Assembly (NCBI RefSeq): GCF_000024785.1
Contig: NC_013441.1
Span: 1,116,001 to 1,180,000, forward strand
Length of the DNA: 64,000 bases
Direction: 5' to 3'
DNA from: Gordonia bronchialis DSM 43247
GTDB taxonomy: Bacteria; Actinomycetota; Actinomycetes; Mycobacteriales; Mycobacteriaceae
The notes beneath the pieces were generated by a model. That model had not been told where the DNA came from. It worked only from the letters and a program-made list of their open reading frames with translations, and searched no databases. This document shows positions 2,753 through 26,382 of the stretch, piece after piece. Within the stretch, counting starts at the first letter, position 1. Each line of letters opens with the position of its first letter. The position numbers and the translations under genes are program-made.

Positions 2753-2813
2753 GCCGGTCCGCCGGACATCACTCTTGTGTCACCTGAATCCATCAGCCCA
2801 CGGGACGGAAGCC

Positions 2814-3605: not shown

Positions 3606-3639
3606 CCCCGACTCCCGGTTCGACGTGCTGTCCAGCGGG

Positions 3640-4869: not shown

Positions 4870-4941
4870 GGTGAACAGCCTATCCGCCCTACCTCAATCG
4901 TTTCTGTGAGTCCCGGCATTCGTGTTGTAAGCTATGACACG

Positions 4942-10593: not shown

Positions 10594-12056
10594 GACGCCC
10601 CTTCCACGTGCTGATCTGACGACGCCCGTAGCGTTGTGACGAATCGTTTGTTGGCCGGCCCGACGACGAAGTTGACGGCGACGTAGCAGGCGGCGGCGGC
10701 CGGCAGCGAGACCAGCGGTGAAAGGTCGCAGAGCAGGTATGCCGTCACGCCCGCGGCTGCTGCCGGGATCGCCAAACGCAGAATGAACCCGATGGGTTCG
10801 CGATAAAGTCCGCGTTTGGCCAGCCGCCAGCGGCTGCAGGCGAGGCCAAGGACTTCGGTGGCGACCAGTGCAGCCGCGGCGCCACGGGCGCCGAAATGCG
10901 GTATCAGCGCAACGTTGGCGACGATGTTGAACACCAGGGTGCATGCGTTGAGCTTCATCAAGAAGTGCTGATCGTGCGCGGCGAAGAGCGCCTGGCTGGC
11001 GGCGCTGTTGAGAAAGGTGACGGCGGCGGCGACGAACAACAGTGCCAGTACCGGCGCGCCGTCGGCGAAACTGTCAGAGCTGATCATCGTGATGATCGGC
11101 GCAGCCAGGATGGGACCGACCACCGCGATCGGAACGGCGAGAAAGTACATGATCTGCGATGTGCGGGCGACGATCTGTGCGAATCGGTCCCGATCTGAGG
11201 CGAAGAGTGCCGTGGCCGTGGACAAGAGAGAGGCGAGCAGGAGGTCGGAGACCATCGTCACCAGGAAGGCCAGTGAGTACGCGAGTCCGTAATGCCCGAC
11301 CTGATCGGCACTCGACAGCACCGACAGCAGCACCCCGTCGATCCGCCAGTAGAGAACGGCGATGATGAGCACGACGGTGATCGGGAAACTCTCCACCAGC
11401 AGGCTGCGGGTCGCGGAGATTTCGAAACGTGGCCTCACTTGACCGAGCCGCGCGGCCGCAAAGGCCATCAACACGAGATTCACCGCCGGCGGCACCAGCT
11501 GCACCACGGCAAACCACTCCAGTCCGGCTCCCTGGCTGACCAGTACCAACGTCATCGCCATCGACAACGTGCGGCCACCGAAGTCGGCGAGTGCCACCGC
11601 GCCATATCGCAGATGCACCTTGAAGACGGCGTCGAAGGAGGTGTAGAGCGTGGTCAGGGCCAGCGAACCGACCGTGATGAGCAGGAGCTTGGCGATCTGC
11701 GGATCGTTACGGTAGACGACGAGTCCTACGCCGAGCGTTATCAGCGACAACGGCAGAGACCACACCACCGCGAACCCGAGGCTGATCCCCACCAGACGTT
11801 CCACCGACGGCCGCTCGCGCAGCCGCGAATCCGTCACACGACGGACGATGACCTCGCTGAAGCCCAGATCGGCGAATGCGGCCCACAGGGTGATGAACAT
11901 CACAGCCGCCGTCAGGTACCCGTAGTCCTCTGGACCGAGATAGCGGGTGGTGAAGGTGACGGTCGCCAGCGAAGCCAGCGTCCCGAAGACGCGGCCGAAC
12001 AGTTGAAGGCCGAATGCGCGGCCGATCCGACCAGCGGTGTGGCCGGAATCGGCCAT
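10590..12056 (-). CDS. Wzx-type polysaccharide flippase (MOP superfamily)
   Basis: The 488-residue protein is very hydrophobic with about 12-14 predicted membrane helices and opens with the typical flippase segment FGLQLFGRVFGTLASLATVT followed by TTRYLGPEDYGYL. It should turn lipid-linked repeat units from the cytoplasmic to the outer face of the membrane, feeding the Wzy-like polymerase at 14.3 kb. The ATG at 12056 has an AAAGG site about 7 bases upstream and heads the five-gene operon of overlapping genes. The promoter presumably lies in the 80 bases between it and the GH6 gene end. Confidence 0.9.
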   Translation of the reverse strand: MADSGHTAGRIGRAFGLQLFGRVFGTLASLATVTFTTRYLGPEDYGYLTAAVMFITLWAAFADLGFSEVIVRRVTDSRLRERPSVERLVGISLGFAVVWSLPLSLITLGVGLVVYRNDPQIAKLLLITVGSLALTTLYTSFDAVFKVHLRYGAVALADFGGRTLSMAMTLVLVSQGAGLEWFAVVQLVPPAVNLVLMAFAAARLGQVRPRFEISATRSLLVESFPITVVLIIAVLYWRIDGVLLSVLSSADQVGHYGLAYSLAFLVTMVSDLLLASLLSTATALFASDRDRFAQIVARTSQIMYFLAVPIAVVGPILAAPIITMISSDSFADGAPVLALLFVAAAVTFLNSAASQALFAAHDQHFLMKLNACTLVFNIVANVALIPHFGARGAAAALVATEVLGLACSRWRLAKRGLYREPIGFILRLAIPAAAAGVTAYLLCDLSPLVSLPAAAACYVAVNFVVGPANKRFVTTLRASSDQHVEGAS

Positions 12057-12136
12057 CACTGCACCTTTGTCCGGCGTGGGTGTTTCAGTCAAGACGAACT
12101 GCTTTCGAAAGATGTCTGCGGTGCCAACCGGTGCAG

Positions 12137-13222
12137 TCAGCGCGTCATCGCAAATGCCACCGCAGGCAGGAAGTCGCCACCTGAGCTGCCTTGTCCCACA
12201 CCGCACGACCCGTCTGAGGTACCCGGCGCCTTCACCCACAGGTACGCATCGAGACCCGGGGGGGCCGCGGGTGGATTCGCACGAGGTGCATAGCCGATCT
12301 TGCGTCCGGGCGGATTGCACCAGGTATCGTTGTCCCACTGGGGGTTTCCGTTACGTGAGGTATCCACGACGTAACGTGGATCGGGCGTCCCGGTAGCGAT
12401 CAGAGCTGCGCGGATGCGTTGCGCGTAGATGGTGATCGGCGCAGTCGGGGCAAAAGAACTGACGTTCACCGCGAATCCGGTCCGTTCGGATGCGCCTGCA
12501 CCGCGCAGCAGTGCCGCCATGCGTTCCGGTGTCACCGAACCCGAACTGGTTCCGGCATCGAGGTACACGTAGGTTCCAGGATTTCGGTTGAGGCGCGTAA
12601 CTACCTTCTGTAGCAGTTGCATTCGTCTGTCGAACCCGGCACGGTCCGCCCGGAACTGTCGATCGGCCAACCATAGTGAGTCGGGTTCGACGATGACGAT
12701 CGCCGAGGTATTGCCGATTGCGGATGCGACACCGCCGACCCAGGTCAGATAGTCGGTCGAAGTGAGATTGTTGATGGGACCGGTCAATCCGTCGTCGCGG
12801 CCGGGAATGTTGTACAGGACGACGACCGGCGTGGTCCCGGTACTGCGCGCTGTCGCAAGCATCGAGGTCAGGTTGGGCAGATCGCGCGAATCCCCGGTGA
12901 GCCACAAGGTATCCGGTTTGTCGCCCAGCGCCGCGCGCAGGGCCGTGGTGCGCGGATCGTGGGGATGGTCTCGCAACCACTGACGGGTCTGGCTGAACGC
13001 CGTCGCCGTGAAAGCGCGCGTGGGCAGCGCTGTTCGTTGCGCGGTGAGGGTGGGGTCGTTCTCGAAAACGCGTGACGAGCGGACGTGGTCTGTCGATCCG
13101 ACGTCATTCGCAGGACTCGCGCAACCGGCTAGCGATCCGACGATCACGAGTAGAAGTGCGAGTGTCATGTTGCGTTTCCAGTGCCCCCCGGTACCGTTCT
13201 TCATGGAAAACACGCGATTCAT
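12137..13222 (-). CDS. Glycoside hydrolase family 6 lipoprotein (endoglucanase/cellobiohydrolase-like)
   Basis: GH6 enzymes cut beta-1,4-glucan by inversion. The protein shows the family landmarks VVLYNIPGRD, IVIVEPDSLW (catalytic-acid region), TYVYLDAG, FAVNVSSF, YVVDTSRNGNPQWDNDTWCN and LDAYLWVKAPGTSDG. It has an N-terminal signal ending in a lipobox (LAGC, Cys about residue 34), so it is anchored outside the cell. ATGs at 13204 and 13168 are alternative starts. No carbohydrate-binding module is present, and at 361 residues it is essentially the catalytic domain alone. Its place between flippase and polymerase genes suggests trimming or releasing a glucan-like exopolysaccharide rather than feeding on plant cellulose. 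Confidence 0.88.
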   Translation of the reverse strand: MNRVFSMKNGTGGHWKRNMTLALLLVIVGSLAGCASPANDVGSTDHVRSSRVFENDPTLTAQRTALPTRAFTATAFSQTRQWLRDHPHDPRTTALRAALGDKPDTLWLTGDSRDLPNLTSMLATARSTGTTPVVVLYNIPGRDDGLTGPINNLTSTDYLTWVGGVASAIGNTSAIVIVEPDSLWLADRQFRADRAGFDRRMQLLQKVVTRLNRNPGTYVYLDAGTSSGSVTPERMAALLRGAGASERTGFAVNVSSFAPTAPITIYAQRIRAALIATGTPDPRYVVDTSRNGNPQWDNDTWCNPPGRKIGYAPRANPPAAPPGLDAYLWVKAPGTSDGSCGVGQGSSGGDFLPAVAFAMTR

Positions 13223-13415
13223 GATAGCGCGGAATAGCGGGTTGTGTGGCCTCGAGGGACGCGGCGCCTTCGGGCGATCGGTCGAAGTGCCGGCAGGCGG
13301 AGCGGATGTTCGCCCTGCTCTTCGGTACTCTTAAATCTCGCAGCCGTGGGATGCAGGATCGGCAATCAGCGGTGACGGCCGATTCGGTGGCATCGCATCG
13401 GCCAGGGAGGTGCCC

Positions 13416-14312
13416 GTGAGAATACTGACACTCGCGCGCCGTCACCGTGTGGTGACGGCGCTCATCGTGATGTTCCTGCTTGTAGTGGGAACCGTCGGCG
13501 GTGTGATCGGTGCAGGGCGTGCCGAGCCCACCTACCAATCCGACGGCATCGTGCTGATCATCCCGCCCGGCGCGGGGAACCCGTCGGCAACGATGAATCC
13601 GTTCGTGAACCTCGACCAGAACATGTCTCAGCTGGCTCAGGCACTGAGCACCCGGATGGCAGCGCCCGACGTGGTCGAGCGGATTCATCAACAAGCACCC
13701 TCGGTGGTGAACTACCAGGCGCAGGTGCGCTACGACCAGTCGGTGGTGAATCCGGCTCCCACCTCGCAGTTGCAGTTCACGGTGCAGGGCACTGACGCGC
13801 AGGCGACACGGGATGTCGTCGCGCAGCTGATGGTGCTCGCAGATGAGGAGCTCAGCCGCATCCAGACACACGCTGGTGTGACGCAGTCGACCCTGGCGGA
13901 TGCGGTCGTTCTCGTGCAGCCCACCGAACCGCAGGTGATGCCGGTGTCGAGTCTGCGTGCTGCGGGAATGGCCGCTGTGGCGGCCGTCCTTCTCGGGTTG
14001 GTGCTGATCGTCGTGGGCCTTGGTGTGTGGCGTTTCGTTCGCGGACGACATGGCGAGACCATGGTCGGCACTGTGGACGACAGCGATGACACGGACAACG
14101 GCAAGTATGAACCGCCGGGCGGTTCGGCGAATCATGAACCCGGCCACGACGACTCCGGTACAAGCAGCTCAGACTCCGACGGTGCCCAGAATGACAGTGT
14201 TACGGGTGACGGTGCCACTGACGAGACCAGGGAGCCGCAAACGTGGGCTCCGTCTACGGCGTCGGCCCGTCACACCGCGCCCGCGACCGAGGCGCGAGGG
14301 AGCGCATGGTGA
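13416..14312 (+). CDS. Wzz-like chain-length/anchor membrane protein
   Basis: The 298-residue protein has one membrane helix at residues 15-34, an extracytoplasmic region containing YQSDGIVLIIPPGAGNPSA and helical segments, and a second helix near residues 185-210 ending WRFVRGRHG. This is the layout of polysaccharide co-polymerases (Wzz/KpsE/CapA). No tyrosine-kinase domain follows; instead there is an 80-residue acidic, Ser/Asp-rich tail. The GTG at 13416 is chosen because the GGGAGG site lies 6 bases before it, whereas the GTG at 13410 abuts that site. The gene overlaps the polymerase gene by 7 bases. The family assignment rests on topology and context. Confidence 0.75.
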   Translation: MRILTLARRHRVVTALIVMFLLVVGTVGGVIGAGRAEPTYQSDGIVLIIPPGAGNPSATMNPFVNLDQNMSQLAQALSTRMAAPDVVERIHQQAPSVVNYQAQVRYDQSVVNPAPTSQLQFTVQGTDAQATRDVVAQLMVLADEELSRIQTHAGVTQSTLADAVVLVQPTEPQVMPVSSLRAAGMAAVAAVLLGLVLIVVGLGVWRFVRGRHGETMVGTVDDSDDTDNGKYEPPGGSANHEPGHDDSGTSSSDSDGAQNDSVTGDGATDETREPQTWAPSTASARHTAPATEARGSAW

Positions 14313-15679
14313 CGATCGCTGCCCGTCTGGACGAGTTCCGGACCTGGCTGCGTGACCCGGAGCATCTCGCCGCCACGCTGGTGAGTGTGAGTGGCGCGAT
14401 GCTGCTCGCCATGCGGCAGGGGTACCGGGTCCCGCTGTCGACTGGTCTGCCACCGTCGCGGGTGGCGGCCGTGCTCGGCCTGCTGATCCTGATCGCGGGA
14501 GTGGTGTCGGGTAGGCCGTACTGGATGCGGTTGATCCGCGGAGTTCCGCTGTGGCCCACCGCCGCGGCACTCGCGCTCGCCGCTTCGATTTTTCTGTCCG
14601 CAGCCAACGCGACCAACGGCGCGATCAACGCGACCGACCTGACCCTCACCTGGTACGCGACGCGCGACGCGGTCACCGCTTTGGCCGCGTTTGTCGTGAT
14701 CGTCGCTTTCATCCGCACTCGGGAGTCGATAGTTCTGGTGTTGCGCGGACTCGTCGTCGGCGGCAGTGTCAGTGCTCTCGCGGGGCTTATCGCCTATGCG
14801 ACGGGAAAAGACCTCGCCGCCTTGATCACGGTGCCGGGTTTGCGCTACACGGACACTCAACTGGTGACGAACCTGATGCGTGAGGGTGTGGTACGCCCGC
14901 AGGGGAGCGCCGGACACCCACTCGAGCTGAGTTCGGTGCTCACTGTCCTGGCCCCTGTCGCGGTGGCATTGACCTTCGAGGCCCGCCGACGGGGCGTCGC
15001 CTGGCAGCCCTGGGCGTTGGCGACCCTGGTCCTGCTGACCGGTGCGGCGGCGACGATTTCACGGTCGGCGCTGGTCGGAGTGATCATCGCGGTCATCGTA
15101 TTCGGGTGCTACTGGCCGCTGCGACGAACACTGGTGGTGCTGGGTGGTTGCGCCGTGGTGTTGGCCGCTGCGTGGCTGGCCAACCTCGCGCTGCTCCGTC
15201 AGCTCATCGACGTCGTATCCGGTGGGTCCAAGGACGCGTCTCTGCAATCCCGGTCATACGGTCGCGGATATGTTGCCGAACACTTCGGTGATCATGTCTG
15301 GCTGGGTCAGGGTTCGGGCACCTATGACGTCCGGGTGCAGCCGGTGCTCGACAACGACTACCTGGCACAGTTGATGCAGGTCGGCATCATCGGCCTCGGT
15401 GCCCTTGTCGTCTTCTATGTTGTCGGCCTGATCGCCGGGATGAGGTCAGCTGTACGCCTACGTGGCACACTTGACCCACTGGCCGAGATCGTGCCCGGAC
15501 TTCTGGCCGCGGTGCTGGTGGTCATGGCCATCTCGATGATCCTCGACGTCGGGGGTTTCGCGCAGATGTCGATGCTCTCCACCGCAATGGTTGCGTTATC
15601 GGTCTGCGTGATGCGCCTCGCGACTTCGGCCCCGACAGACGATCAATCGACCTCGGCCGCTACGACGGCAATCGCGTGA
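14306..15679 (+). CDS. Wzy-like O-antigen ligase/polymerase family membrane protein
   Basis: The 457-residue protein has about 11-12 membrane helices and the large loop typical of the Wzy_C/O-antigen ligase family, including SRSALVGVIIAVIVFG and, after it, GYVAEHFGDHVWLGQGSGTY with the conserved LGxGxGTY-type motif and HNDYL-like DNDYLAQLMQVGIIG. It should join flipped repeat units outside the membrane. The ATG at 14306 overlaps the Wzz-like gene end, so the two are coupled; GTG 14309 is an alternative start. The 3' end overlaps the convergent acpS by 37 bases. Confidence 0.87.
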   Translation: MVTIAARLDEFRTWLRDPEHLAATLVSVSGAMLLAMRQGYRVPLSTGLPPSRVAAVLGLLILIAGVVSGRPYWMRLIRGVPLWPTAAALALAASIFLSAANATNGAINATDLTLTWYATRDAVTALAAFVVIVAFIRTRESIVLVLRGLVVGGSVSALAGLIAYATGKDLAALITVPGLRYTDTQLVTNLMREGVVRPQGSAGHPLELSSVLTVLAPVAVALTFEARRRGVAWQPWALATLVLLTGAAATISRSALVGVIIAVIVFGCYWPLRRTLVVLGGCAVVLAAAWLANLALLRQLIDVVSGGSKDASLQSRSYGRGYVAEHFGDHVWLGQGSGTYDVRVQPVLDNDYLAQLMQVGIIGLGALVVFYVVGLIAGMRSAVRLRGTLDPLAEIVPGLLAAVLVVMAISMILDVGGFAQMSMLSTAMVALSVCVMRLATSAPTDDQSTSAATTAIA

Positions 15680-16017
15680 CAGTGACTGTGTGACAACGAC
15701 ACCGTCGCATCGCGCCAACCTCTATGGGCCCCCAGACGGGCGATCGCGCCGTGGAGGCGGAGTTCGGGTGGGCCGCCGCGGCCGGTGAGCACCTCGATGT
15801 CTCGAGGCGGCGTTGCCACATCGACGAGTCCGAGAGCCTTGATCGTGGCTTCCTTGGCCGCAAATCGGGCCGCCAGCCGTGGCGTGCGGAGGGCGCCACC
15901 GCATGCCACGAGCTCCGAGGCTGTGAACACCCGATGCAGGAATCGGTCGCCGAAAGCCGCCACTGATTCCTCGATCTCGCTCAACGCCACCAGATCACAG
16001 CCGATGGTGATGCTCAT
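15643..16017 (-). CDS. acpS: Holo-[acyl-carrier-protein] synthase (4'-phosphopantetheinyl transferase)
   Basis: This 124-residue enzyme transfers phosphopantetheine from CoA to a serine of a carrier protein. It has both AcpS signatures: GCDLVALSEIEES (metal-binding Asp at residue 8) and RFAAKEATIKALGL (metal-binding Glu). The length is normal for the family. In Mycobacterium the housekeeping acpS sits by the fatty acid synthase gene, so this copy, the last gene of the minus-strand operon that begins with a carrier-protein gene, is probably dedicated to that carrier. The start overlaps the GH2-like gene stop by four bases (ATGA). Confidence 0.9.
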   Translation of the reverse strand: MSITIGCDLVALSEIEESVAAFGDRFLHRVFTASELVACGGALRTPRLAARFAAKEATIKALGLVDVATPPRDIEVLTGRGGPPELRLHGAIARLGAHRGWRDATVSLSHSHCHAIAVVAAEVD

Positions 16018-18461
16018 AACGGCCCTTCAGCGAACGGGGAGTCGAGCGCATCGACAGACGAGATGCGGATGCGGGGTGGACGGCGGCTGCGGTCGGTGCT
16101 CGTCGCGGTGACCCGTACATCGTGGCCGATACCTCCGACGAGGCCGAAACAATTGTCGCTCATCGAGTATCCGGGTGCGTCAAGGCAGACGTAACGTAGT
16201 GAAACCGGCGCGCACACAGTGACGATCCAATCGGCTCCAGCGGCATCCGGGCGAATTCGCCCGTGTAGCCCGGACCGAACCGGCGAGCGCGGTGGAGTCA
16301 CCACGAGTACGTCGCGACCGAGCGGCGTGCCGTCCGTCGCAGTGAGTCGCACCTCGACAGCATCGGTGACCGCCGGCCCGAATCGGTAGGCATGGCTGAG
16401 GTCGGTGAACGTGCCGGTGAGCTGCTGGTCGCTGCGGTGCAGGGCGGAATGCGGCGCTAACGCGACGGGTTCAACGTGGGTCTCGTGTTGGCCGACATGG
16501 AGCGTCAGATCGGCGTCGAGTGGGGTGGGCCCGTCGTTGTAGACATCGACACGCAGTCCTGACAGGCCGTCGTCGGAGAGGAGTACTGCGACCGGAGCCC
16601 AGACGCGCCGCAGCACCGACAACGGCAGCTTGGGGGAACCGTCCGCACCGAGCAGGCCCCAGCCGGCGCCTGGCACCATGTCCTTGCCGCTCAAGACCAG
16701 TGCGCCGGCGCACCGTGAATCCGCGCGACGCCAGTACCGGTAGCAGCACTCCATGGCCGCCGAGATCGCCACTCGTCCGAGCTGGAGATAGCGGGCCGGG
16801 TCCACCCGACGAATCGCGAGCGGGTCCACATCGAATACCGCACGGACGTAGTGATCGCGGACATCTTCGAAATCCCAGGATGCAGTGCGATCCCGCGGTA
16901 CGCCCGCCTTCCACCACGGATGGTGACCCACCACGGTGAGCGATCCGAAATCGCGTTCGATCGTGGCGTCATCCGGTGGGATGGCAAAAGCCAGCGACTC
17001 CGCGGCAAATCGCACCCGGGCGCGATACACGTCCTCGATCGGTCGGAGGTAGCCGCCGACGCCGAACCAGTGTGCGACGCCGGACGCCGGATCGATGGCG
17101 TCGTCGGCGGACGGCGCGGCACCGGTGGGACTCGACTGGACGAAGACCGCGTCGGAGTGGTCGGCGACCATGGCCGGCAACAGTTCATCGAGTATCGGCA
17201 TCCGGCGGGAGGCGGCGTCGACGCCGAGCATTTGGGGCTGCTGCTGGGTTTCGCTGCCGCCGCTGAGCACGGTGAGCGCGGGATTGCCGGAGAGCCTGTC
17301 GACAAGTGCGCCCACCTCTGCGCAGATCGTCCGGGAGATCTCCTCGGGCGGATCGAATGTGGCCTGCATGGCGTCGTGCCAGATGAGGATTCCGGCCTGG
17401 GCGCACAGATCGTAGAACTCGGGCTGTTCGGGAACCAGGCCGCCGACGAGACGCAGCATGGTGGCGCCCGCGGCGGCGAACTCGCCGACGACCCGTGTCA
17501 GGGACTCGGGGTCGTCGGCGGACGGGCGGACCGCGTTCAGTGGCGCCCAGGTGGCGCCCCGGCAGAACACCTCGACTCCGTTGACGCACAGCGTGAATCC
17601 GCCATCCGAACGATCGACCGTGACGTCCCGGAAGCCCAGCGGTCGGTCGGCGGCCCGTCGACCGTCCACGTCGATGATGAGGCGGTACAGGTAGGCGGGG
17701 CCGTAACCGGCGGGCCACCAGCGCACCGGGTTGCGCACTGACATGCGCAACTCCGCAGTCGTTCCGACGCCGACCGCGGAACTGGCAGCGGCGACCTCGA
17801 TCCCGGTGTCGTCGACGATCCGGGCTCGCACCACGGGCACCGTGCCGCGGGTATCATCGGCGCCGACCAACCGAAGGTTGACCGCGACCCGGCCGTCGAC
17901 CTTCGTGGTAACGGAGACGTCATCGAGAACCGGACCGCGGTGCAGGTGTACCGGCTGCCAGATGCCGACGATCGGGGGGAGATCCCCGTACACCGGTGAG
18001 CGACCGATCAGTGAGGTCCGCAACCAGCGCAGTCCCTGCGCCGCAACCAATGTGGAGCGCCACCGTCCGCGACCCCGTCGCGTTCTCAGCCAGCGGGTCA
18101 CCGAGTCGAACCGCACATGGATGTGCTCGGTGCCTGCCGGGATGGTCACCGTCATCGGCAGGAACATGGACTCTACCTCGGCGACAGCCACCTGATCGGC
18201 GAAGATTGTTGCCGGACAGGTTATTCCGTCGAAGCGAACGAGCGCGGCCGACCCCGGGGTGAGGGTGGCCGACTGCCACCAGTCGTAGGCGTCCACATCG
18301 CAGCCGGCCCAGGGGGAATCCTCGAGCAGTGCGCCCACCGGGCTCGGCGTAACCACCTCGAGTCCGGGCAGTCCGAGGGCGGACAACTCGGCCGGTGTCG
18401 TCGCCGCGCCGGGTGAGGTGCGCACCAATCGCCAGGCCGTCAGTTCTTCCGCGTCGACCAC
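16014..18461 (-). CDS. GH2-like (beta-mannosidase-type) protein without signal peptide
   Basis: The 815-residue product has the glycoside hydrolase family 2 order: an N-terminal sugar-binding jelly roll (about 40-200, with IVGIWQPVHLHRGP), an immunoglobulin-like domain (about 205-300), a TIM-barrel domain starting near GFTLCVNGVEVFCRGATWAPLN, and C-terminal beta domains. The acid/base region reads LSGGSETQQQ, with Ser where GH2 enzymes usually have Asn before the catalytic Glu; a possible nucleophile Glu lies in RFAAESLAF. There is no export signal, so it acts inside the cell or is a non-hydrolytic derivative. The start is a GTG 3 bases after the DUF1839 stop. Confidence 0.75.
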   Translation of the reverse strand: MVDAEELTAWRLVRTSPGAATTPAELSALGLPGLEVVTPSPVGALLEDSPWAGCDVDAYDWWQSATLTPGSAALVRFDGITCPATIFADQVAVAEVESMFLPMTVTIPAGTEHIHVRFDSVTRWLRTRRGRGRWRSTLVAAQGLRWLRTSLIGRSPVYGDLPPIVGIWQPVHLHRGPVLDDVSVTTKVDGRVAVNLRLVGADDTRGTVPVVRARIVDDTGIEVAAASSAVGVGTTAELRMSVRNPVRWWPAGYGPAYLYRLIIDVDGRRAADRPLGFRDVTVDRSDGGFTLCVNGVEVFCRGATWAPLNAVRPSADDPESLTRVVGEFAAAGATMLRLVGGLVPEQPEFYDLCAQAGILIWHDAMQATFDPPEEISRTICAEVGALVDRLSGNPALTVLSGGSETQQQPQMLGVDAASRRMPILDELLPAMVADHSDAVFVQSSPTGAAPSADDAIDPASGVAHWFGVGGYLRPIEDVYRARVRFAAESLAFAIPPDDATIERDFGSLTVVGHHPWWKAGVPRDRTASWDFEDVRDHYVRAVFDVDPLAIRRVDPARYLQLGRVAISAAMECCYRYWRRADSRCAGALVLSGKDMVPGAGWGLLGADGSPKLPLSVLRRVWAPVAVLLSDDGLSGLRVDVYNDGPTPLDADLTLHVGQHETHVEPVALAPHSALHRSDQQLTGTFTDLSHAYRFGPAVTDAVEVRLTATDGTPLGRDVLVVTPPRSPVRSGLHGRIRPDAAGADWIVTVCAPVSLRYVCLDAPGYSMSDNCFGLVGGIGHDVRVTATSTDRSRRPPRIRISSVDALDSPFAEGPL

Positions 18462-18464
18462 TGC

Positions 18465-19436
18465 TCAGACAGCCTGGTCGAGCAGATCGATTCCGGCCAG
18501 CCAGTCCGAGGTCAACGCGGACAACAAATCGTCGAGATCGACTGCGCGACCACGGGCCGCGCGAGCCATCTTGAACTGGACCGTCTTCGCGGTCAGGGCC
18601 ACCGCACGCAGGCGTTCGGCGGCCGGAGTGGTGTCGAGGCCGTCACGGGCGAGGAGATCGGCGAGATCCGCGGCGACCTCTGCGGTGGCGCCACATTGAC
18701 GCAGAGTTGCGAAGGACCACAGATGAAAGGTGGTCATGTCGGCATCCGGCAGCCAGGAGAGGGCGTCGCGGACCGAGTCGGCAAGGCGCGCAGCGGGATT
18801 CCCCGGCGGCCGACGATCGAGGTGGCGTCGGGCAACGGCCCGGATCAGGTCGGGATCGACCCGATTGCCCGGATCCGGGCCGACCCGCCGGATCTGTTCG
18901 ACGTACGGTGGCAGCTCCGGAGGCGCGAACAGTCCCGCGAAGTCCTCACCGGACAGCTCGTAGACGCCGGCATTGTGCACATAAGTCAGTGACCGGGCGT
19001 CCCGGTCGACGGCCACCGGGACGATCGTCGTCTTCACATGGCCGGTTCGGTAGTCGGTGCCCGCGGTGTCCGGCAGCCACCAGCTGTCGACCTCGACGGT
19101 GTGCAGCAGACCGCGTTGCGGACCGCTGCACACGGTGTCGAGCACGGGACGCCACAGCGTCTCCTCGGCGACCTCGAGCCCGTACATGGTCCGCAGATCC
19201 TCAGGCGCGGGTTTGAGAAAGCTCCACTGCGCACCGTCGTGGTCGGCGGAGAGCGCACAGACAAACGACGGCACGGGGTCGTGACCGAGCGCGTGCAGAA
19301 CCTCGATCCACAGATCGAGATAGCAGTTGGTCTCCTGCCAGATGCGGTCGGGCGCGTGCGCAGCGTGTGGCTGATACCCGTCTGCGGCGGCTGAGATACC
19401 AACCGGTGAGCCGGTTGTGGCGATGTCCGCGATCAC
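18465..19436 (-). CDS. DUF1839 family protein
   Basis: The 323-residue soluble protein matches the DUF1839 family as I recall it: an early WQETNCYLDLWIEVLHALG segment (with a conserved NCY), FVCALSADHDGAQWSFLKP, LLHTVEVDSWWLPDT, and VKTTIVP followed by YVHNAGVYEL. Its function is unknown. In other bacteria members sit beside amino acid:carrier-protein ligases and small carrier proteins, as here. The Cys and His residues in the N-terminal half would suit a papain-like or acyltransferase activity, but that is speculation. It starts with GTG in a GTGA overlap with the carrier-protein stop, so the two proteins are made together. Confidence 0.75.
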   Translation of the reverse strand: MIADIATTGSPVGISAAADGYQPHAAHAPDRIWQETNCYLDLWIEVLHALGHDPVPSFVCALSADHDGAQWSFLKPAPEDLRTMYGLEVAEETLWRPVLDTVCSGPQRGLLHTVEVDSWWLPDTAGTDYRTGHVKTTIVPVAVDRDARSLTYVHNAGVYELSGEDFAGLFAPPELPPYVEQIRRVGPDPGNRVDPDLIRAVARRHLDRRPPGNPAARLADSVRDALSWLPDADMTTFHLWSFATLRQCGATAEVAADLADLLARDGLDTTPAAERLRAVALTAKTVQFKMARAARGRAVDLDDLLSALTSDWLAGIDLLDQAV

Positions 19437-19681
19437 GCGGCTTGGTCTAGGAGCTGGGCGATGACCGCCGACAGGTTGTCGATGCTGGCGAAGGTCGTTT
19501 TCTTGAGTGCCTCGTCGGGAAATTCGACTTCGTAGGCGTCCTCGAGCGCGAGCATCACGTTGACGCTCGCATGGGAGGTGAGGCCGGCTTCAAAGAGGTC
19601 GGCATCAGTGGTAATCGTCTCGGCGTCGACGGCCAGCTTTCCGTGTTGGCGGAGAACGTCACGAATCGGCTGAATATCCAT
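19433..19681 (-). CDS. Acyl carrier protein-like aminoacyl carrier protein
   Basis: This 82-residue four-helix carrier protein has its attachment serine at residue 36 in DLFEAGLTSHASVNVML, where the usual DSL is replaced by TSH. That variant is typical of carrier proteins paired with amino acid:[carrier protein] ligases. It should carry an amino acid as a thioester on phosphopantetheine installed by the acpS of the same operon. The ATG at 19681 is preferred; a GTG directly before it would add one residue. It is the first gene of the minus-strand operon and is divergent from the dehydrogenase and ligase genes, with a shared 168-base control region. Confidence 0.9.
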   Translation of the reverse strand: MDIQPIRDVLRQHGKLAVDAETITTDADLFEAGLTSHASVNVMLALEDAYEVEFPDEALKKTTFASIDNLSAVIAQLLDQAA

Positions 19682-19849
19682 CACAGAGATACTTTCGGGT
19701 GAGGCGATGTGGGACTTGCAGTCAGTGCACTTCTTCTTGACTTGAGTGCAGACACGCGTTCAAGATGCATTAGATCGTCAGATATGTAGCTCTCCACTGA
19801 AGGGCGCTGCGTTGTTCCAGGTTTGGGGAGCCCCAGAGGGGAATCTGTT

Positions 19850-21007
19850 ATGTCATCGACCTCGCCTGCCTTGGGTGACCTCGATTGTTCCACAGCGGTG
19901 ACCGCTGCGGCCGAGAATGCCGCGGACGTCGACACCAAGGCCCGGTTTCCGGTTGAGGCAGTGAACGCAATGCGCGACGCCGGCCTGCTTTCGGCGTCGT
20001 TGCCGTCCTCGCTGGGCGGTCGCGACGCGGGCATCGCCGAGCTCGCCCGGGTCGCCCGGCAACTGGGTTTCGCGTGCAGTTCCGCGGCGATGGTGTTCGC
20101 GATGCACCACACGCAAGCGCTGAGTCTGCGCTTCCATGCCGATCGTGGCCAGATTGCCGATGTGACCAGGCGAATCGCCGAGTCCGAGGCGCTGTTGGCC
20201 TCGTCGACCACCGAGATCACCACCGGAGGGGACACCGGGTCCTCGACCTGCGCGGTGGTCTCCGACGGAGACGAGATCGTGCTGGAGAAGAATGCCCCGG
20301 TGATCTCCTATGGCGCCGAGGCCGACTACATCTGCACCACCGCCCGGCGTACGCCGGACAGTCGGCCGTCGGATCAGGTCCTCGTGGTCTGCCCGAGTGG
20401 CGACACCGAGCTCACCCAGACCTCGGAGTGGAACACACTCGGCTTCCGCGGCACCTGCAGTCCAGGGTTCGTCCTGAAGACGAAGACTTCGGCCCGACAC
20501 GTGGTGCCCGTGCCCTATTCTTCGATTTCGGCGCACACCATGCTGCCGGCTTCGCATATCCTGTGGGCCTCTGCGTGGCTGGGTCTGGCCGATGCCGCGA
20601 TCGCCAAAACCCGCGGGCAGGTTCGCGCTGCAGCGCGCAAGAGCGTCGGTATCACAACTCCGCAAGCGACGAAGTTCGCCGATCTCCTGGTCATCCACCA
20701 GCGGATGGAATCGTCAGTCGATGCCGAGATCCGGCGTTACACCGAGTTTCTGGCCTCAGACGAAGAAGAGCCCACCATCGCTTTCGCCATTGCGATGAAC
20801 AACCTCAAACTCAGTGCCTCCATCGCGGTGGTCGATGTGGTGGCCGGAGCACTCGCGATCTGTGGCATCAACGGATATCGCGAGGATCATGCGGCTTCGA
20901 TGGGTCGCCTACTGCGCGACTCCTATGGTCCGCAGGTGATGGTGTCCAACGACCGGATTCGGGCGAGCAACGCCCAGCTGGTTCTCGCCTACCGTGGTCA
21001 GTCTTGA
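19850..21007 (+). CDS. Acyl-CoA dehydrogenase-like flavoprotein
   Basis: The 385-residue protein has the three-domain acyl-CoA dehydrogenase layout: an N-terminal helical domain with LPSSLGGRDAGIAELARVARQLG, a beta middle domain (about 120-230) and a C-terminal four-helix domain with GLADAAIAKTRGQV and ICGINGYREDHAASMGRLLRD. In the stretch aligned with the catalytic Glu of medium-chain enzymes I read Val (GPQVMVSNDRIR), so the base may differ. Neighbouring genes suggest the substrate is an aminoacyl group on the carrier protein, as for prolyl-carrier-protein oxidases. The ATG at 19850 follows a GAGGGG site by about 8 bases. Confidence 0.85.
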   Translation: MSSTSPALGDLDCSTAVTAAAENAADVDTKARFPVEAVNAMRDAGLLSASLPSSLGGRDAGIAELARVARQLGFACSSAAMVFAMHHTQALSLRFHADRGQIADVTRRIAESEALLASSTTEITTGGDTGSSTCAVVSDGDEIVLEKNAPVISYGAEADYICTTARRTPDSRPSDQVLVVCPSGDTELTQTSEWNTLGFRGTCSPGFVLKTKTSARHVVPVPYSSISAHTMLPASHILWASAWLGLADAAIAKTRGQVRAAARKSVGITTPQATKFADLLVIHQRMESSVDAEIRRYTEFLASDEEEPTIAFAIAMNNLKLSASIAVVDVVAGALAICGINGYREDHAASMGRLLRDSYGPQVMVSNDRIRASNAQLVLAYRGQS

Positions 21008-21060
21008 ACCTTCGACCAGCGCTGCTCGACAGCAGTGATGACCATGAAAATGAGGCACAC

Positions 21061-22023
21061 ATGGCTGACCCGAATCCGTCCACCGACAGCGCTGACCTCC
21101 TCGATGGGCTGCGGCGTGACTTCGCCGAAACCCTGATCGACCAAGGCCTCCTGATCCCAACTGGAATCGACGGACTGTACGGTCGAAGTGGTGTTTTCGA
21201 ATCAATCGTCGAGGGCATCGACCATGCCGTCCGGGCGGCCGGGGCTGCGGCACACGGCTCGACTCCCCGGGTGCTGCGGTTTCCGCCGGTGTTCCCGCGG
21301 GCCAACTTCGAGAAAACCGATTACATCGCGTCCTTCCCGAATCTCACCGGTGCCATCTCCACGTTCCTCGGTGACAACAAGGCGCACCGCGCGTTGCTGG
21401 CCGACCGGGAGAACGGTCTCAGCTGGGACGGGCATCTCGCACCGGCCGGGACGATGCTGGTCTCCGCGGCGTGTCATCCGTCGTATGCGGGTCTCGCCGG
21501 CCGACTGGACAGCGCGGTACTGATGGATGTCTACGGCTATTGCTTCCGACACGAGCCCTCCATCGACCCCATGCGGATGCAGGCCTTCCGAATGCACGAA
21601 TTCGTCTACGTCGGCGACGCCGAAGGCGCCCGCGCCCATCGTGACTCGTGGGTGCCCAGAGCCCTGGATGTTCTGGCCGCGCTGCAACTCGACGCGCAGG
21701 CGGTCCCCGCCAACGACCCGTTCTTCGGGCGGGCCGGCAAGATGCTGGCCGCCAATCAGCGTTCGGAGAGTCTCAAAACAGAACTGGTGGTGTCGCTTTA
21801 CGGTGACGCGGGTGAACCCACGGCTGTGGTATCCGCGAACTGCCACCAGGACCACTTCGGTGAGAGCTTCGGGATCACCACCGCGGCAGGCGAAGTTGCG
21901 CACAGTGCGTGCGTCGGTTTCGGAATGGAGCGGATTGCACTCGCCCTGCTGCGAACCCATGGCACGGATGTCGCCGCCTGGCCGTTCTCGGTCCGCACGG
22001 CCATGGCGCTGCCTCGGCAATGA
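21061..22023 (+). CDS. Amino acid:[carrier protein] ligase (class II aaRS-like)
   Basis: This SerRS-like enzyme, lacking the tRNA-binding arm, activates a small amino acid with ATP and transfers it to the phosphopantetheine of a carrier protein. The 320-residue length fits the family. It retains class II motif 3 (VGFGMERIALALLRTHG) and a Cys-Glu-Cys zinc set at about C138 (SAACHPSYAG), E180 (AFRMHEFVYVG) and C284 (HSACVGFGME), as in methanogen-type SerRS, where the zinc contacts the amino acid amine. Characterised relatives load glycine or alanine. The ATG at 21061 lies 53 bases after the dehydrogenase stop; the longer open frame upstream is overlap with that gene. Confidence 0.9.
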   Translation: MADPNPSTDSADLLDGLRRDFAETLIDQGLLIPTGIDGLYGRSGVFESIVEGIDHAVRAAGAAAHGSTPRVLRFPPVFPRANFEKTDYIASFPNLTGAISTFLGDNKAHRALLADRENGLSWDGHLAPAGTMLVSAACHPSYAGLAGRLDSAVLMDVYGYCFRHEPSIDPMRMQAFRMHEFVYVGDAEGARAHRDSWVPRALDVLAALQLDAQAVPANDPFFGRAGKMLAANQRSESLKTELVVSLYGDAGEPTAVVSANCHQDHFGESFGITTAAGEVAHSACVGFGMERIALALLRTHGTDVAAWPFSVRTAMALPRQ

Positions 22024-23810
22024 CAAGGCCAAGCGTCGGGCAGATCGACGCCGGTTCGGTGACCAGCACCCCGTTGTACTTTGGACCCGATGATGCATCG
22101 CTGTTCGGGGTGCTCAGTGTCCCGAGGAGTCGAAAGGTGCGCGTCGGGGTTCTGGTGTGCGCGTCGCTGGGAAAAGAACAGGCAGAGACCACTCGCTGGT
22201 TCAAGTATTTCGCCGAGCGTTTGGCTGCCCGAGAGTGTGCGGTGTTGCGCTTCGACTATCCGCACACCGGCGAGTCTGCGGGTGCGCAGGACGCGCCGGG
22301 GGCGTCGCGGCAGTGGCTGGAGGGTATCGGTGCCGGCGTGGAGTTGCTGCGCTCATGCGGTGTTCCGGAAGTGATCGGCGTCGGGCACCGGATGGGTGCG
22401 CTGATGCTGTCTCTGGTCGCCGCAGAGCTGTCGGTGCACACCATGGTGCTGTGGGACCCTGTGATGAGAGGCCGCACCTATCTTCGTTCGAAGACCGTGC
22501 TGTACAACATGGTTGGTGAGATCCCGGATTGGCTGACGCCCTGGGCACATGCGTCGTCGGAGCCGGTGCCGCAGACTGACCACCGGGTACACATTGCTGG
22601 GCAATCCCTGCACCCGGATGCGGCGCAGACGCTGAGTTCCTGGAAGCTGGACCGGTTGCCGGAGAGTGCGTCGGCTGTACTGGTGCTCGAGCGGGAGGCC
22701 GGCGGGCCGCCGAGCGCGGTGTTCGACCACGCGTCGGTAGACGTCGTATCAATCGGCGATCAGGAGCCTTTCCTGGAACCTGGTCATCCTGCGGTGATCT
22801 CCTTTCCGGAACGCGATGTGACCACGGTCGTCGACTGGATCGACGAGCACGCCTCGGAGTCGAGGATCAGCTTTTCCGATCCAGATATTCGGCAAAGCGC
22901 CGTCGTCGCCCGGACACAGGACGGGCGTCCGGTAGTCAACAGCGTGCACGTTGTCGACGATGGGGTGATGGTGTGGCGGACGCAGATGGGCGGACGTGCG
23001 GCGCCGATGGACATCTTTGTCGCCCATTCGCTCGGGCAGTACGTGCGGACCGGGCCGTCGAGATTATGGTTCGACACCGCGATCCGGGTTGCGTGCAGCG
23101 GCGGCGGAGCCATCAGGTTCGACAGGCCCGGCGTCGGCGAGTCGGGAATGGTCAGCGGCGCAGATCGAATGCTGCCCCTCTACACGCAAGCCTACGTCGA
23201 CGAAGGTTGCGGTGTCCTCGAGTCGCTGGAGCTACCGGTCGCGGCGCGTCTGGTGCACGGCGGGATATGTGTGGGTTCCTGGATGGCAGCGCACGGGGCG
23301 TTGGCCACCGCGCGTACCCATCCGGATCGGCATTCGACCGTCGTGCTGGTGAACCCGCTGATGTGGCGGTTGCGCCCGCAACGTCGATTCCGACTCTCCG
23401 ATTACGGATCCGACGTTGGCATCGCGGGGGTCGCCACCGCGGTCAGCGCCGACGCGACCTCACGGCTCGATGATGCGCAACAACGCCTCGCGACCTTGAG
23501 GAACAGGATCGAACTGCGTGTGCGTCGTCGTATGCCGCGTCGTTGGTGGTCGGTGATCCCACACCTCCCTGACGCGGCCCTTGCCCAGTTCGCTGCCGAG
23601 GCGGTGAATGTCGAGATGGTGTTCGCGCCGGCCGATTACGCCTACTTCAATCACCTTTTCGGCGCCGACGCGACGATCCGGGCGGCGAAACAGCCCCCGG
23701 GGGTACACATCGGCGTCGTGGGCGACCACACCTCGTACAACGTCGTGATCCGCGAATTGATCATGGACACGGTGGTGGCCGCGGTCGGGAGCCCTGGCCT
23801 TCCGGACTGA
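22020..23810 (+). CDS. Tandem alpha/beta-hydrolase with Arg and Cys nucleophile elbows
   Basis: The 596-residue protein contains two alpha/beta-hydrolase domains. Domain 1 (about 15-275) has VLRFDYPHTGESAG and an elbow GHRMG, with Arg124 where the nucleophile should be, so it is probably not catalytic. Domain 2 (about 300-590) has IRFDRPGVGESGM, the elbow GICVG with Cys417, a candidate acid Asp539 (FAPADYAYF) and His570 (VVGDHTSYN). A Cys nucleophile recalls the aminoacyl shuttles CmaE and SyrC that move amino acids between carrier proteins. Its ATG overlaps the ligase stop (ATGA), tying it to aminoacyl chemistry. Transfer to a final acceptor is inferred. Confidence 0.8.
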   Translation: MTRPSVGQIDAGSVTSTPLYFGPDDASLFGVLSVPRSRKVRVGVLVCASLGKEQAETTRWFKYFAERLAARECAVLRFDYPHTGESAGAQDAPGASRQWLEGIGAGVELLRSCGVPEVIGVGHRMGALMLSLVAAELSVHTMVLWDPVMRGRTYLRSKTVLYNMVGEIPDWLTPWAHASSEPVPQTDHRVHIAGQSLHPDAAQTLSSWKLDRLPESASAVLVLEREAGGPPSAVFDHASVDVVSIGDQEPFLEPGHPAVISFPERDVTTVVDWIDEHASESRISFSDPDIRQSAVVARTQDGRPVVNSVHVVDDGVMVWRTQMGGRAAPMDIFVAHSLGQYVRTGPSRLWFDTAIRVACSGGGAIRFDRPGVGESGMVSGADRMLPLYTQAYVDEGCGVLESLELPVAARLVHGGICVGSWMAAHGALATARTHPDRHSTVVLVNPLMWRLRPQRRFRLSDYGSDVGIAGVATAVSADATSRLDDAQQRLATLRNRIELRVRRRMPRRWWSVIPHLPDAALAQFAAEAVNVEMVFAPADYAYFNHLFGADATIRAAKQPPGVHIGVVGDHTSYNVVIRELIMDTVVAAVGSPGLPD

Positions 23811-23949: not shown

Positions 23950-24083
23950 AAATATACCGGCAGATCTGTGTTATCAATCAATGCGGGTGATAGGTTCGGG
24001 CACCGTACGCTCAAGGATCGGAACGCTTGCGGGGGTGGATCCTTGAGTCGATCGCGAGAGCCGGCACACGGTGTGGAGGGGTA

Positions 24084-25154
24084 GTGAAGCGGCGTTTCGA
24101 TCGACGGACCGTAGCAGTTCTCGTCAGCGAAACAGGCGCACTTCCGCTGCTGCTCATCGGGTATATCTGGCCTGAGAATGTGGTCGAGCACGGGCTCAGG
24201 TGGCTGCTCGTCATCGGCGTGTACACGGCCGGGTCGATCATCCTGACGGTTCTCCTGCGTCCCCTCACTGATGTGTGGTTCACCATCTTGAGCTTCGGTG
24301 GCATGCTGGGTATCGCGGGCTCGGCAGCGGTGATAGTCGACAACGGTGCCGCTCATACTGTGCTCGTTCTGCTTGCCGTGATACCCGCGCTGGCCGCGGT
24401 GGAATCGCCGCTGCGAACAGTGGTGGCGTTCGTGCTGACTGCAGCGATAATGGCTTGCGCAGTGGTGGCGGACCGAGCCACGGGGGTTGTCCCGCTGGTC
24501 GTGAGCGAGGGCTCGGTGATCATGGCCATCAGCGTGCCGACCTACCTGGTGCTGACGCTGCGCTGGTCACTGGAGCGATCGTTGGCGCAACAGCAGATCC
24601 TGAGCGATACCGACCCACTGACCGGAGTGCTCAACAGACGCGGGCTCGCGAAGAGTTGGGGCGGGATGTTGTCCGCCAGTGAAGCCGGCCAAGGCCGAAT
24701 CGGATTCATCGAGGCCGACGTGGATCACTTCAAGGAGCTCAACGATCGGCACGGCCACTCGGTTGGCGACTCCATTCTCGTCGAAATCGCCGAGACGTTG
24801 AAGAAGGCAGTCGGACCCCAGGCACTGGTAGCGCGGATGGGGGGTGAAGAATTCGTCATCATCGATCACACCGACGGGGTGGCGGAACTGACTCGGCAGT
24901 GCGAGAACCTGCGAACTGCGGTCGACGAGAATGTGGCGGCAACAGTCAGTCTGGGCGCGGTGTGCGCTACGGTGAGCTTCTGCCGAGCCGACAAACCGGT
25001 TTCCGACTCGGCGATCATGGACGAGTTGTTCGGCATCGCCGACAGCTCTCTTTACGTCGCTAAACGGTCGGGGCGCAATCAAGTCGTCGTGACGTCCGCG
25101 GAGGTCACCGGCGACGTCAGCATTGATGAGATTCTCCGGGAAGGCGACAGATGA
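24084..25154 (+). CDS. Membrane-bound GGDEF diguanylate cyclase
   Basis: The enzyme joins two GTP into cyclic di-GMP. The 356-residue protein has about six membrane helices in residues 8-170, then a GGDEF domain beginning DTDPLTGVLNRRGL, with the metal-binding DVDHFKELND and an active-site MGGEEF. At the I-site position, upstream of GGEEF, it reads GPQA instead of RxxD, so product inhibition there is probably absent. The GTG at 24084 has a strong GGAGGGG site 4-5 bases upstream and is preferred over the longer reading from 24027. Its last four bases overlap the Rv1355c-like gene (ATGA). The location next to exopolysaccharide genes suggests c-di-GMP control of polymer. Confidence 0.9.
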   Translation: MKRRFDRRTVAVLVSETGALPLLLIGYIWPENVVEHGLRWLLVIGVYTAGSIILTVLLRPLTDVWFTILSFGGMLGIAGSAAVIVDNGAAHTVLVLLAVIPALAAVESPLRTVVAFVLTAAIMACAVVADRATGVVPLVVSEGSVIMAISVPTYLVLTLRWSLERSLAQQQILSDTDPLTGVLNRRGLAKSWGGMLSASEAGQGRIGFIEADVDHFKELNDRHGHSVGDSILVEIAETLKKAVGPQALVARMGGEEFVIIDHTDGVAELTRQCENLRTAVDENVAATVSLGAVCATVSFCRADKPVSDSAIMDELFGIADSSLYVAKRSGRNQVVVTSAEVTGDVSIDEILREGDR

Positions 25155-26263
25155 TCGAGATCCTGCACCCAGACGACGACGAGCATCGCCTGAGCGAACT
25201 GCGCGCCGCCGGTGTGCCCGAGGTGGACGTCTGGGCATATGCGGCCGACGAACTTCGAGCACTCAATGCTCTTGACCACGTCGACCCGGGGGTCTCGCCG
25301 CCGACCGTGATCGACCTCGACGATCCGGTGCAGCTGGCGGCCCACTCCCGGTTTGTTCACTTCCCGTGGCGATCGACTGTTGTGCGGCTGCCCGACGCCG
25401 AATTGTTCTACCGGTTGAAGACGGCACGTAACCGACATCTGTTGACCGGCACGGAGCAGGAGGCCTGGGCGACGGGATGTATCGGGGTCGCCGGACTGAG
25501 CGTCGGGTCCGCCGCCCTGAGTTCGTGTGCGCTGACCGGCGCGCGAAGGTTCCGGCTGGCCGATCCCGATGTTCTGGCTCCGACGAACCTCAATCGGATC
25601 GAGGGGTCGGTGTGTGACATCGGAGTCTCGAAGGTCGACTTGGCGGCACGTCGGGTACTCGAGTTCGACCCCTACATCGAGCTCGAGCTCTTCCCTTCCG
25701 GATATGTTGCGGCCGACGCCGACGCCTTCCTCGGACTGTCTACGACCGCGGCGTCGGTGATCATTGAGGAGATCGACGATGTGGCGTCCAAGATCGATCT
25801 ACGTCGGAGGGCACGGAACGCCGGGATTCCCGTCGTCAGTGCCACTGACATGGGCGACAATGTGGTCATCGACATCGAGCGTTACGATCTCGACCGGCAG
25901 TACCCGATCTTTCACGGGAGAGGCGAAGGCTTCGACGCGGGTGACGCCGCCGACCCCGCTCAACGGATGCGAATGGCTGCCAGCATCGTCGGGGACTCGT
26001 TGACTTCGCGCATGGCTTTTTCCGCAGCACAGCTGGGTCGCAGTGTGGCCTCCTGGCCGCAGCTGGGTTCGACGGCGGCGATGGCTGGTGCGCTCGTTGC
26101 CACCGTCGCCCGGAACATTGTCTGCGGCCGCGCGGTGACATCAGGCCGCCATGTTGTCGACGTCGAGCACATGCTGCTCGCGCCCGGCGAGCCCTCGGGC
26201 TGGAACGAACTGTCTTCCGACCAGATCAGCGAACTCTTGCGTGTTCTGGGCGTGACCCAGTGA
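25151..26263 (+). CDS. Rv1355c-like ThiF/E1-family protein
   Basis: The 370-residue protein carries an E1/ThiF-type nucleotide-binding domain: GVAGLSVGSAALSSCALTGA as the ATP loop, RLADPDVLAPTNLNRIEG (the acidic residue and the LNR segment common in MoeB/ThiF enzymes), and SATDMGDN. It may adenylate a carboxylate of an unknown partner. M. tuberculosis Rv1355c, annotated moeY, is similar and lies next to the GGDEF-EAL gene Rv1354c; the link with a diguanylate cyclase is kept here. The protein is shorter than my recollection of Rv1355c, so a C-terminal part may be missing. It is coupled to the cyclase by an ATGA overlap. Confidence 0.75.
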   Translation: MIEILHPDDDEHRLSELRAAGVPEVDVWAYAADELRALNALDHVDPGVSPPTVIDLDDPVQLAAHSRFVHFPWRSTVVRLPDAELFYRLKTARNRHLLTGTEQEAWATGCIGVAGLSVGSAALSSCALTGARRFRLADPDVLAPTNLNRIEGSVCDIGVSKVDLAARRVLEFDPYIELELFPSGYVAADADAFLGLSTTAASVIIEEIDDVASKIDLRRRARNAGIPVVSATDMGDNVVIDIERYDLDRQYPIFHGRGEGFDAGDAADPAQRMRMAASIVGDSLTSRMAFSAAQLGRSVASWPQLGSTAAMAGALVATVARNIVCGRAVTSGRHVVDVEHMLLAPGEPSGWNELSSDQISELLRVLGVTQ

Positions 26264-26382
26264 CGTACGGCCCGGCGCCGACCCCGACGTCCGGACACTC
26301 CAGACTGTCCTGGTCATTGCCGCGTCTTGTCGTATCGACGTGGCCGGCCGACCCGAGCCGATAGCCACCGACCATCGCCGGA

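Follow-up and report, generated by a model that had tools for sequence, protein, structure and literature searches.

What becomes of an amino acid once it has been loaded onto a dedicated carrier protein? The question is raised by a seven-gene module at positions 15643-23810 of a 64,000-nucleotide stretch of Gordonia bronchialis DSM 43247 DNA (NC_013441.1, positions 1,116,001 to 1,180,000; hereafter the window). Reading frames and family searches place the genes in two divergent operons, with the order carrier protein, DUF1839, GH2 and acpS on the minus strand and flavoprotein, ligase and hydrolase on the plus strand, adjoining a polysaccharide locus at 1028-15679. The seven genes and their families (frames, Pfam and PRK matches), as well as their place beside a Wzx/Wzy polysaccharide locus (family matches), agree with what an earlier reading of the sequence, the original prediction, had proposed. 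We tentatively favour an answer in which the amino acid is a small one, is probably oxidised while bound to the carrier, and is then handed by the Cys hydrolase to an amino sugar within a polysaccharide of the cell surface. Loading is in print for relatives; the later steps we infer from gene linkage and conserved residues. We favour this answer because the ligase scores over its family cut-off, a carrier protein lies near 79 of 80 ligases, the hydrolase residue C417 is conserved, the hydrolase is kin to those of exosortase-A systems, and glycan genes lie nearby. The module itself is real and well conserved, and it belongs to a kind already known, though not yet solved in function.

The idea has a history. 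Amide ligation of amino acids to cell-surface amino sugars was predicted in 2010 by Iyer and colleagues in a note added in proof (PMC2922099), for a set in which this kind of ligase is accompanied by an acyl carrier protein (ACP), a redox enzyme, a conserved open reading frame (ORF) and a glycosidase. The original prediction's amino-acid-modified glycan or product was hence a reasonable inference, but not one "not yet described". In a 2022 review the role of amino-acid-charged carrier proteins is called unknown (PMC9437257), and the accessible parts of the open-licence literature yielded neither an experiment on the module nor a mention of a link between its hydrolase and exosortase-A. Our additions are to identify the hydrolase, to separate core genes from an optional pair, and to question the dehydrogenase label.

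Scanning named genomes with the ligase alignment, we confirmed at least 582 relatives. The best-scoring 80 were used as loci, with neighbourhoods of 10 kb, so that our counts describe the near end of the ligase family; short contigs lower these counts and cut some genes, and the loci are not independent (18 of the 80 are from Rhodococcus or Rhodococcoides and 8 from Curtobacterium). Within 10 kb of the 80 ligases we found the carrier protein 79 times, the flavoprotein 72, the hydrolase 57, acpS 47, DUF1839 45 and GH2 42, the latter always accompanied by DUF1839. This recurrence in 80 named loci upholds the proposal of a dedicated module. Genome-wide, 56 of the 80 hold a DUF1839 match (one a 46-residue fragment with a stop, one split over two contigs). 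For the 23 loci with no hydrolase nearby, 21 genomes do hold a match; 10 of these matches are nearly full-length, while the 11 partial ones may in some cases be other alpha/beta hydrolases. From these counts the ligase, carrier and hydrolase, usually with the flavoprotein, seem to form a stable base, and DUF1839 and GH2 a tight optional pair. The hydrolase, being commoner than DUF1839 near ligases, is the likelier basic off-loading enzyme, and has to be considered in this role alongside DUF1839.

The loading chemistry that had been proposed is supported by a ligase over its family cut-off and kin to solved amino acid:[carrier protein] ligases. The 320-residue enzyme (21061-22023, plus strand) matches PRK07080 over its full length (residues 11-316; 425.8 bits, cut-off 357) and Bll0957-type structures at 230 and 221 bits. 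It matches positions 308-503 alone of a 518-position seryl-tRNA synthetase (SerRS) model, i.e. the SerRS-like core without the tRNA-binding domain. C138, E180 and C284 are invariant in 15 alignment rows, and we take them to be the Cys/Glu/Cys zinc ligands. Loading has reportedly been shown for relatives of the Bll0957 type (work said to be by Mocibob in 2010, and a 2013 paper), and from this kinship the amino acid loaded here is presumably Gly or Ala. The carrier protein (19433-19684, minus strand; PRK07081 106.8 bits, cut-off 72) bears its phosphopantetheine serine, S37, in the motif LTSHAS, and this Ser is kept in 80/80 rows. Rows here and below comprise the window and those loci that passed a score threshold, after dropping low-scoring or partial ones (2 of 42 for GH2, 3 of 57 for the hydrolase and 2 of 72 for the flavoprotein). 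The genome holds three ACPS-superfamily matches, among them the phosphopantetheinyl transferase gene acpS of the module (15643-16017, minus strand; PF01648 53.1 bits, cut-off 25). Of the four overlaps claimed between module genes, the coordinates bear out three of 4 bases (carrier/DUF1839, GTGA; GH2/acpS, ATGA; ligase/hydrolase, ATGA), but the fourth, DUF1839/GH2, is a 3-base gap that had been miscounted. Flavoprotein and ligase are 53 bases apart, and the 165-base region between the operons (19685-19849) presumably holds their promoters.

The "Cys-elbow hydrolase" of the original prediction (22020-23810, plus strand; 596 residues) proved to be a fusion of two alpha/beta-hydrolase domains, closest to exosortase-A hydrolases 2 and 1 and below the cut-offs of those families. 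Its C domain, hydrolase-1-like, carries C417, D368 and H570: D368 is present in 55/55 rows, and C417 and H570 each in 54, the remaining row being a gap. Its N domain, hydrolase-2-like, lacks a nucleophile: the elbow of the window protein reads GHRMG, with neither Ser nor Cys, and no nucleophile was found among the conserved N-domain columns of the aligned hydrolases. At a threshold of 1e-3, 45/45 aligned module hydrolases matched TIGR03100 and 44/45 matched TIGR03101, and in 9/9 relatives scanned singly (chosen from the 45) the N domain was matched by TIGR03101 and the C domain by TIGR03100. In the window protein both models fall on the N domain (TIGR03101 52.8, cut-off 202.75; TIGR03100 36.3, cut-off 168.45), so its C-domain assignment comes through its relatives. 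Since 8 of 14 control genomes also hold TIGR03100 matches that fall short of the cut-off, weak TIGR03100 matches alone were left unused.

The two hydrolases also occur unfused. Adjoining pairs, the second member with a GFCSG elbow, were found in Thiomonas FB-6 and two proteobacterial metagenome-assembled genomes (MAGs). Among 120 of the 143 relatives of the Thiomonas GFCSG hydrolase (its own protein included), the elbow Cys is kept in all 120 by alignment and the pattern GxCxG in 114. In Thiomonas FB-6 the unfused pair lies ~15 kb from the module on the same contig and adjoins genes that match exosortase-A polysaccharide families. This exosortase-A-type set, ~11-20 kb from the module, has the chain-length protein as its sole member over cut-off (391.1, cut-off 278.85), the exosortase itself not having been sought. 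The exosortase-A ligase scored over cut-off in 19 of 143 genomes, and we searched the stretches around 12 of these 19 with our own profiles. Carrier, hydrolase 2 and hydrolase 1 stood side by side in 5/12, and hydrolases 2 and 1 stood at the edge of the stretch in one more. The carrier matches were weak (E from 8e-8 to 3e-4), and each protein has a DSMA phosphopantetheine-type motif. Aligned to the profile of the module's own hydrolases, the hydrolase 1 proteins of these stretches place a Cys on C417 and a His on H570 in 6/6 cases.

Put together, the module would work as follows. AcpS would arm the carrier at Ser37; the SerRS-like ligase would adenylate a small amino acid and then load it; the flavoprotein would modify the aminoacyl thioester; Cys417 in the C domain of the hydrolase would take over the acyl group and pass it to the acceptor, with the inactive N domain holding the carrier. 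DUF1839 (papain-like, with Cys38) and GH2 would act as an optional second transfer-and-trim pair. As for the oxidation and release steps originally envisaged, a flavoprotein and a hydrolase are indeed present, but the former is probably no ordinary dehydrogenase, and the latter joins DUF1839 as a candidate for off-loading.

To place the module in its genomic setting we counted four glycan families (GT4, GT2, Bac_transf and Wzx; GT9 and ArnT-like genes fall outside them), with profiles grown from seed proteins, and compared the loci with 20 control stretches; these were taken from 16 of the genomes that hold the loci, 14 actinobacterial (16 stretches) and two proteobacterial (4 stretches). The 67 loci grouped as actinobacterial include Acidobacteria- and Dehalococcoidia-labelled MAGs, and the 16 proteobacterial ones include a Myxococcales MAG. 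Of the 57 actinobacterial loci at least 15 kb long, 38 had a glycan gene (45/67 of any length), against 5/20 controls (one-sided Fisher p=0.0014), a p-value that is only a guide since the seeds come partly from the same loci and the loci are related. Pfam searches agreed: PF13692 (GT4) was found in 17 of 124 flank genes drawn at random from 254 around 22 chosen loci, in 4/130 proteobacterial flank genes (of 137, 14 loci) and in 3/130 control genes (of 345). By group, glycan genes accompanied the module in Williamsia (5/5), Mycobacterium (7/8), Acidimicrobia (7/8), Rhodococcus (14/18) and Gordonia (2/4). On a Tsukamurella tyrosinosolvens plasmid (L105), acpS and the carrier gene lie in an exopolysaccharide locus with a glycosyltransferase gene separating them; flavoprotein, DUF1839 and hydrolase are not annotated beside these two.

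Several observations weigh against transfer to a surface polysaccharide by the hydrolase. Proteobacterial loci showed no clear enrichment in glycan genes (5/11; p=0.22), and the four families were absent within 10 kb of the module in Curtobacterium (0/8), Gammaproteobacterial MAGs (0/5) and Azospirillum (0/1). The refuting condition set by the original prediction, a gene set found mostly away from glycan loci, thus gives a mixed result: actinobacterial copies taken together are enriched in glycan genes nearby, but the four families are missing around the Curtobacterium and Gammaproteobacterial copies, and the module is not always found in such surroundings. In Rhizobium leguminosarum, DUF1839 and GH2 lie with the module and no hydrolase is annotated beside them, in a gene table that is incomplete. 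A polysaccharide deacetylase, present in the neighbouring locus of the window, lies near only 3/83 loci and is no general companion. As regards the exosortase-A kinship, every TIGR03100 or TIGR03101 score obtained for module hydrolases is below cut-off, the best relative reaching 143.2 for TIGR03100 (cut-off 168.45). Six of the 12 exosortase-A stretches (one of them shorter) had no carrier or hydrolase within ~6 kb, and profiles of the ligase, flavoprotein, DUF1839 and GH2 had no match in any of the 12. Finally, the exosortase model TIGR02602 had no match in this genome, in a search without a positive control; with the sub-cut-off hydrolase scores, this led us to reject membership of the exosortase-A system.

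Could the hydrolase then release the product as a small, diffusible compound, either an amino acid in oxidised form or a short amide, the polysaccharide genes being neighbours by chance or through shared regulation? Loci around which glycan genes are sparse or missing (those of Curtobacterium, of Gammaproteobacterial MAGs and of Rhizobium, whose R. leguminosarum stretch has no annotated glycosyltransferase) speak for it, as do those of Azospirillum and Mycetohabitans, where such genes are few or absent apart from a GT9 gene (A. brasilense) and an ArnT-like gene (Mycetohabitans) ~7-10 kb from the module. Natural-product starter pathways load, oxidise and release on carriers, and the self-contained load-oxidise-release set found here resembles them. 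Three things speak against it: actinobacterial copies are enriched in glycan genes nearby, the module has a GH2 partner, and its hydrolase is kin to hydrolases of polysaccharide loci. We judge this alternative to be rather unlikely.

A second alternative keeps the same destination and exchanges the roles of two enzymes: DUF1839 would make the amide bond, and the hydrolase would merely clear wrong or stalled acyl groups, in the manner of a type II thioesterase. DUF1839 (18465-19436, minus strand; PF08893, E=1.2e-121) keeps C38 and H154 in 46/46 rows each, and T (as T137 here) or S at position 137 in 46/46. The conserved ORF of the 2010 set, Atu2574, we take to be DUF1839, an identity that would fit the neighbourhood. 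The partner of DUF1839, the GH2-like protein (16014-18461, minus strand; PF00703 28.2 bits, cut-off 23), is nearest to beta-mannosidases (6byc, 86.2 bits), and alignment with 6byc puts both catalytic Glu in place, E404 and E488 each being kept in 40/41 rows. In PMC2922099 that uncharacterised ORF, presumably DUF1839, is assigned as the amide ligase. According to PMC10318531, DUF1839 has a papain-like fold with the triad C(T/S)H, and glycan processing is offered there as a guess at its role. That fold assignment rests on this source and on a weak profile match: aligned with six BtrH_N proteins (hhalign), DUF1839 is collinear, Cys on Cys, at E=5.8e-4 and a probability of 29%; PDB sequence searches with DUF1839 gave no match. 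The R. leguminosarum arrangement also fits a DUF1839 that acts as the transferase. Yet a DUF1839 match is missing from 24 of the 80 ligase genomes (some of them incomplete MAGs), and at loci L020, L023 and L072 the hydrolase is the sole candidate among the module genes for off-loading. We hence consider it unlikely that DUF1839 is the transferase and the hydrolase a proofreader.

The flavoprotein (19850-21007, plus strand; PF02771 40.7 bits, cut-off 22.9) has the acyl-CoA-dehydrogenase fold without the usual catalytic Glu. Of 71 rows, 63 have V and 8 have I at the place of the Glu in the YEGT motif (the MCAD place); for this reason we rejected an ordinary acyl-CoA dehydrogenase, and the enzyme is probably of another kind. 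H86 and H236 occur in every one of 40 rows, and no Glu at the IVD place was found among the conserved columns near H236; the MCAD and IVD places we take to be the catalytic ones. It is highly improbable that the flavoprotein instead oxidises the amino sugar, as amino-sugar N-oxygenases do, to give an N-oxidised, acylated sugar: its profile does match DnmZ (78.8 bits) and the nitrososynthase 3mxl (63.9 bits), with the dehydrogenase Glu place vacant, but butyryl-CoA dehydrogenase scores higher (94 bits), and the presence of the flavoprotein near 72/80 ligases, against 42/80 for GH2, indicates that it goes with the ligase.

The gene set is scattered among bacteria. By its ligase, the nearest named locus among the best 80 of at least 582 is that of Gordonia asplenii (77% identity), and the ligase is patchy within the genus (8/59 genomes). 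In a sample of the phylum it was found in 10/396 genomes, 4 of them over cut-off, and DUF1839 in 3/396 (this genome included), all three with the ligase. One genome has two different ligases on opposite strands, ~9 kb apart (G139:C1:729149-740311), and ligase relatives occur in plasmid records from Streptomyces (22) and Priestia (3). Proteobacterial records (Azospirillum, Mycetohabitans) contain the same genes, in the order carrier, flavoprotein, ligase, DUF1839, GH2, hydrolase, which rules out a unique new pathway. In Mycetohabitans rhizoxinica an acyltransferase gene lies directly upstream of the carrier gene (L108:11077-12318). Within the window, third-position G+C is 0.70-0.79 for frames in the first 28.7 kb and 0.82-0.92 for most later ones (from a crude frame list), so that the module-bearing stretch may be an acquired block.

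The adjoining polysaccharide locus begins on the plus strand with an initiating sugar transferase (Bac_transf, 1028-2752; PF02397, 222.6 bits) and a WecG/TagA/CpsF glycosyltransferase (2775-3605; PF03808, 115.5 bits). A secretory-lipase-like gene lies at 3640-4869. On the minus strand come the polysaccharide deacetylase (5557-6534; PF01522, 73.6 bits), which could expose a hexosamine amino group and so supply a free amine, and five frames of uncertain start: a GT4 glycosyltransferase (6471-8036; PF00534), a frame with a GT4 N-domain (7574-8761; PF13439), a glycosyltransferase with a GT4 domain (8617-10944; PF00534), a Wzx-type flippase (10590-12338; PF13440, PF01943) and a GH6 (cellulase-family) glycosidase (12137-13222; PF01341, 180 bits). 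Back on the plus strand, a frame with no Pfam match is placed like a chain-length protein, a role suggested by position only (13410-14312), and a Wzy_C polymerase/ligase closes the locus (14306-15679; PF04932 40.4 bits, cut-off 31.7). Downstream of the module, 24027-28683 encodes a GGDEF protein, a ThiF-family protein whose gene shares 4 bases with it, an unassigned frame on the opposite strand and an EAL protein; given the GGDEF and EAL neighbours, control of the polysaccharide by cyclic-di-GMP is conceivable.

Four known systems can be set beside the module. With the Bll0957-type ligase systems it shares a ligase over cut-off, an adjoining carrier, and flavoprotein, DUF1839, GH2 and hydrolase as in the proteobacterial records; its divergent actinobacterial layout, its own acpS and its Wzx/Wzy neighbour set it apart. 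D-alanylation of teichoic acids by the Dlt system, in which a carrier-borne amino acid is destined for a surface polymer, offers an analogy for the favoured route. The module's ligase, however, is SerRS-like (PRK07080) and not a DltA adenylation enzyme; its carrier matches DltC models below cut-off (E=0.0022 and 0.038), and no match to MBOAT (DltB) was found among the scanned genes, which are part of those of the window. In the model, the optional DUF1839 would resemble butirosin BtrH, which transfers from an ACP to an aminoglycoside, as a papain-like Cys enzyme bringing an aminoacyl group from an ACP to an amino sugar. The homology is weak, though, and DUF1839 has its own Pfam family and, according to PMC10318531, a swapped triad.

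The fourth system is the exosortase-A (XrtA/PEP-CTERM) locus. Alike are the carrier beside hydrolases 2 and 1 (5/12) and the aligned Cys and His (6/6); unlike are the fusion of the hydrolases here, their sub-cut-off scores, a SerRS-like ligase in place of the AMP ligase, and a genome in which no exosortase match was found. It is possible, if doubtful, that the ligase module and the carrier-hydrolase 2-hydrolase 1 set are variants of one device, in which a carrier and a Cys-dependent alpha/beta-hydrolase pair hand a thioester-bound, amino-acid-derived group to a surface glycan. The conserved Cys hydrolase, the exosortase-A kinship and the minimal gene sets point to a single enzyme and a single class of acceptor as the things to test. 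The kinship of the hydrolases would link two unexplained polysaccharide gene sets, and a shared device, if true, would be a thiotemplated counterpart of D-alanylation across Actinomycetota and Proteobacteria.

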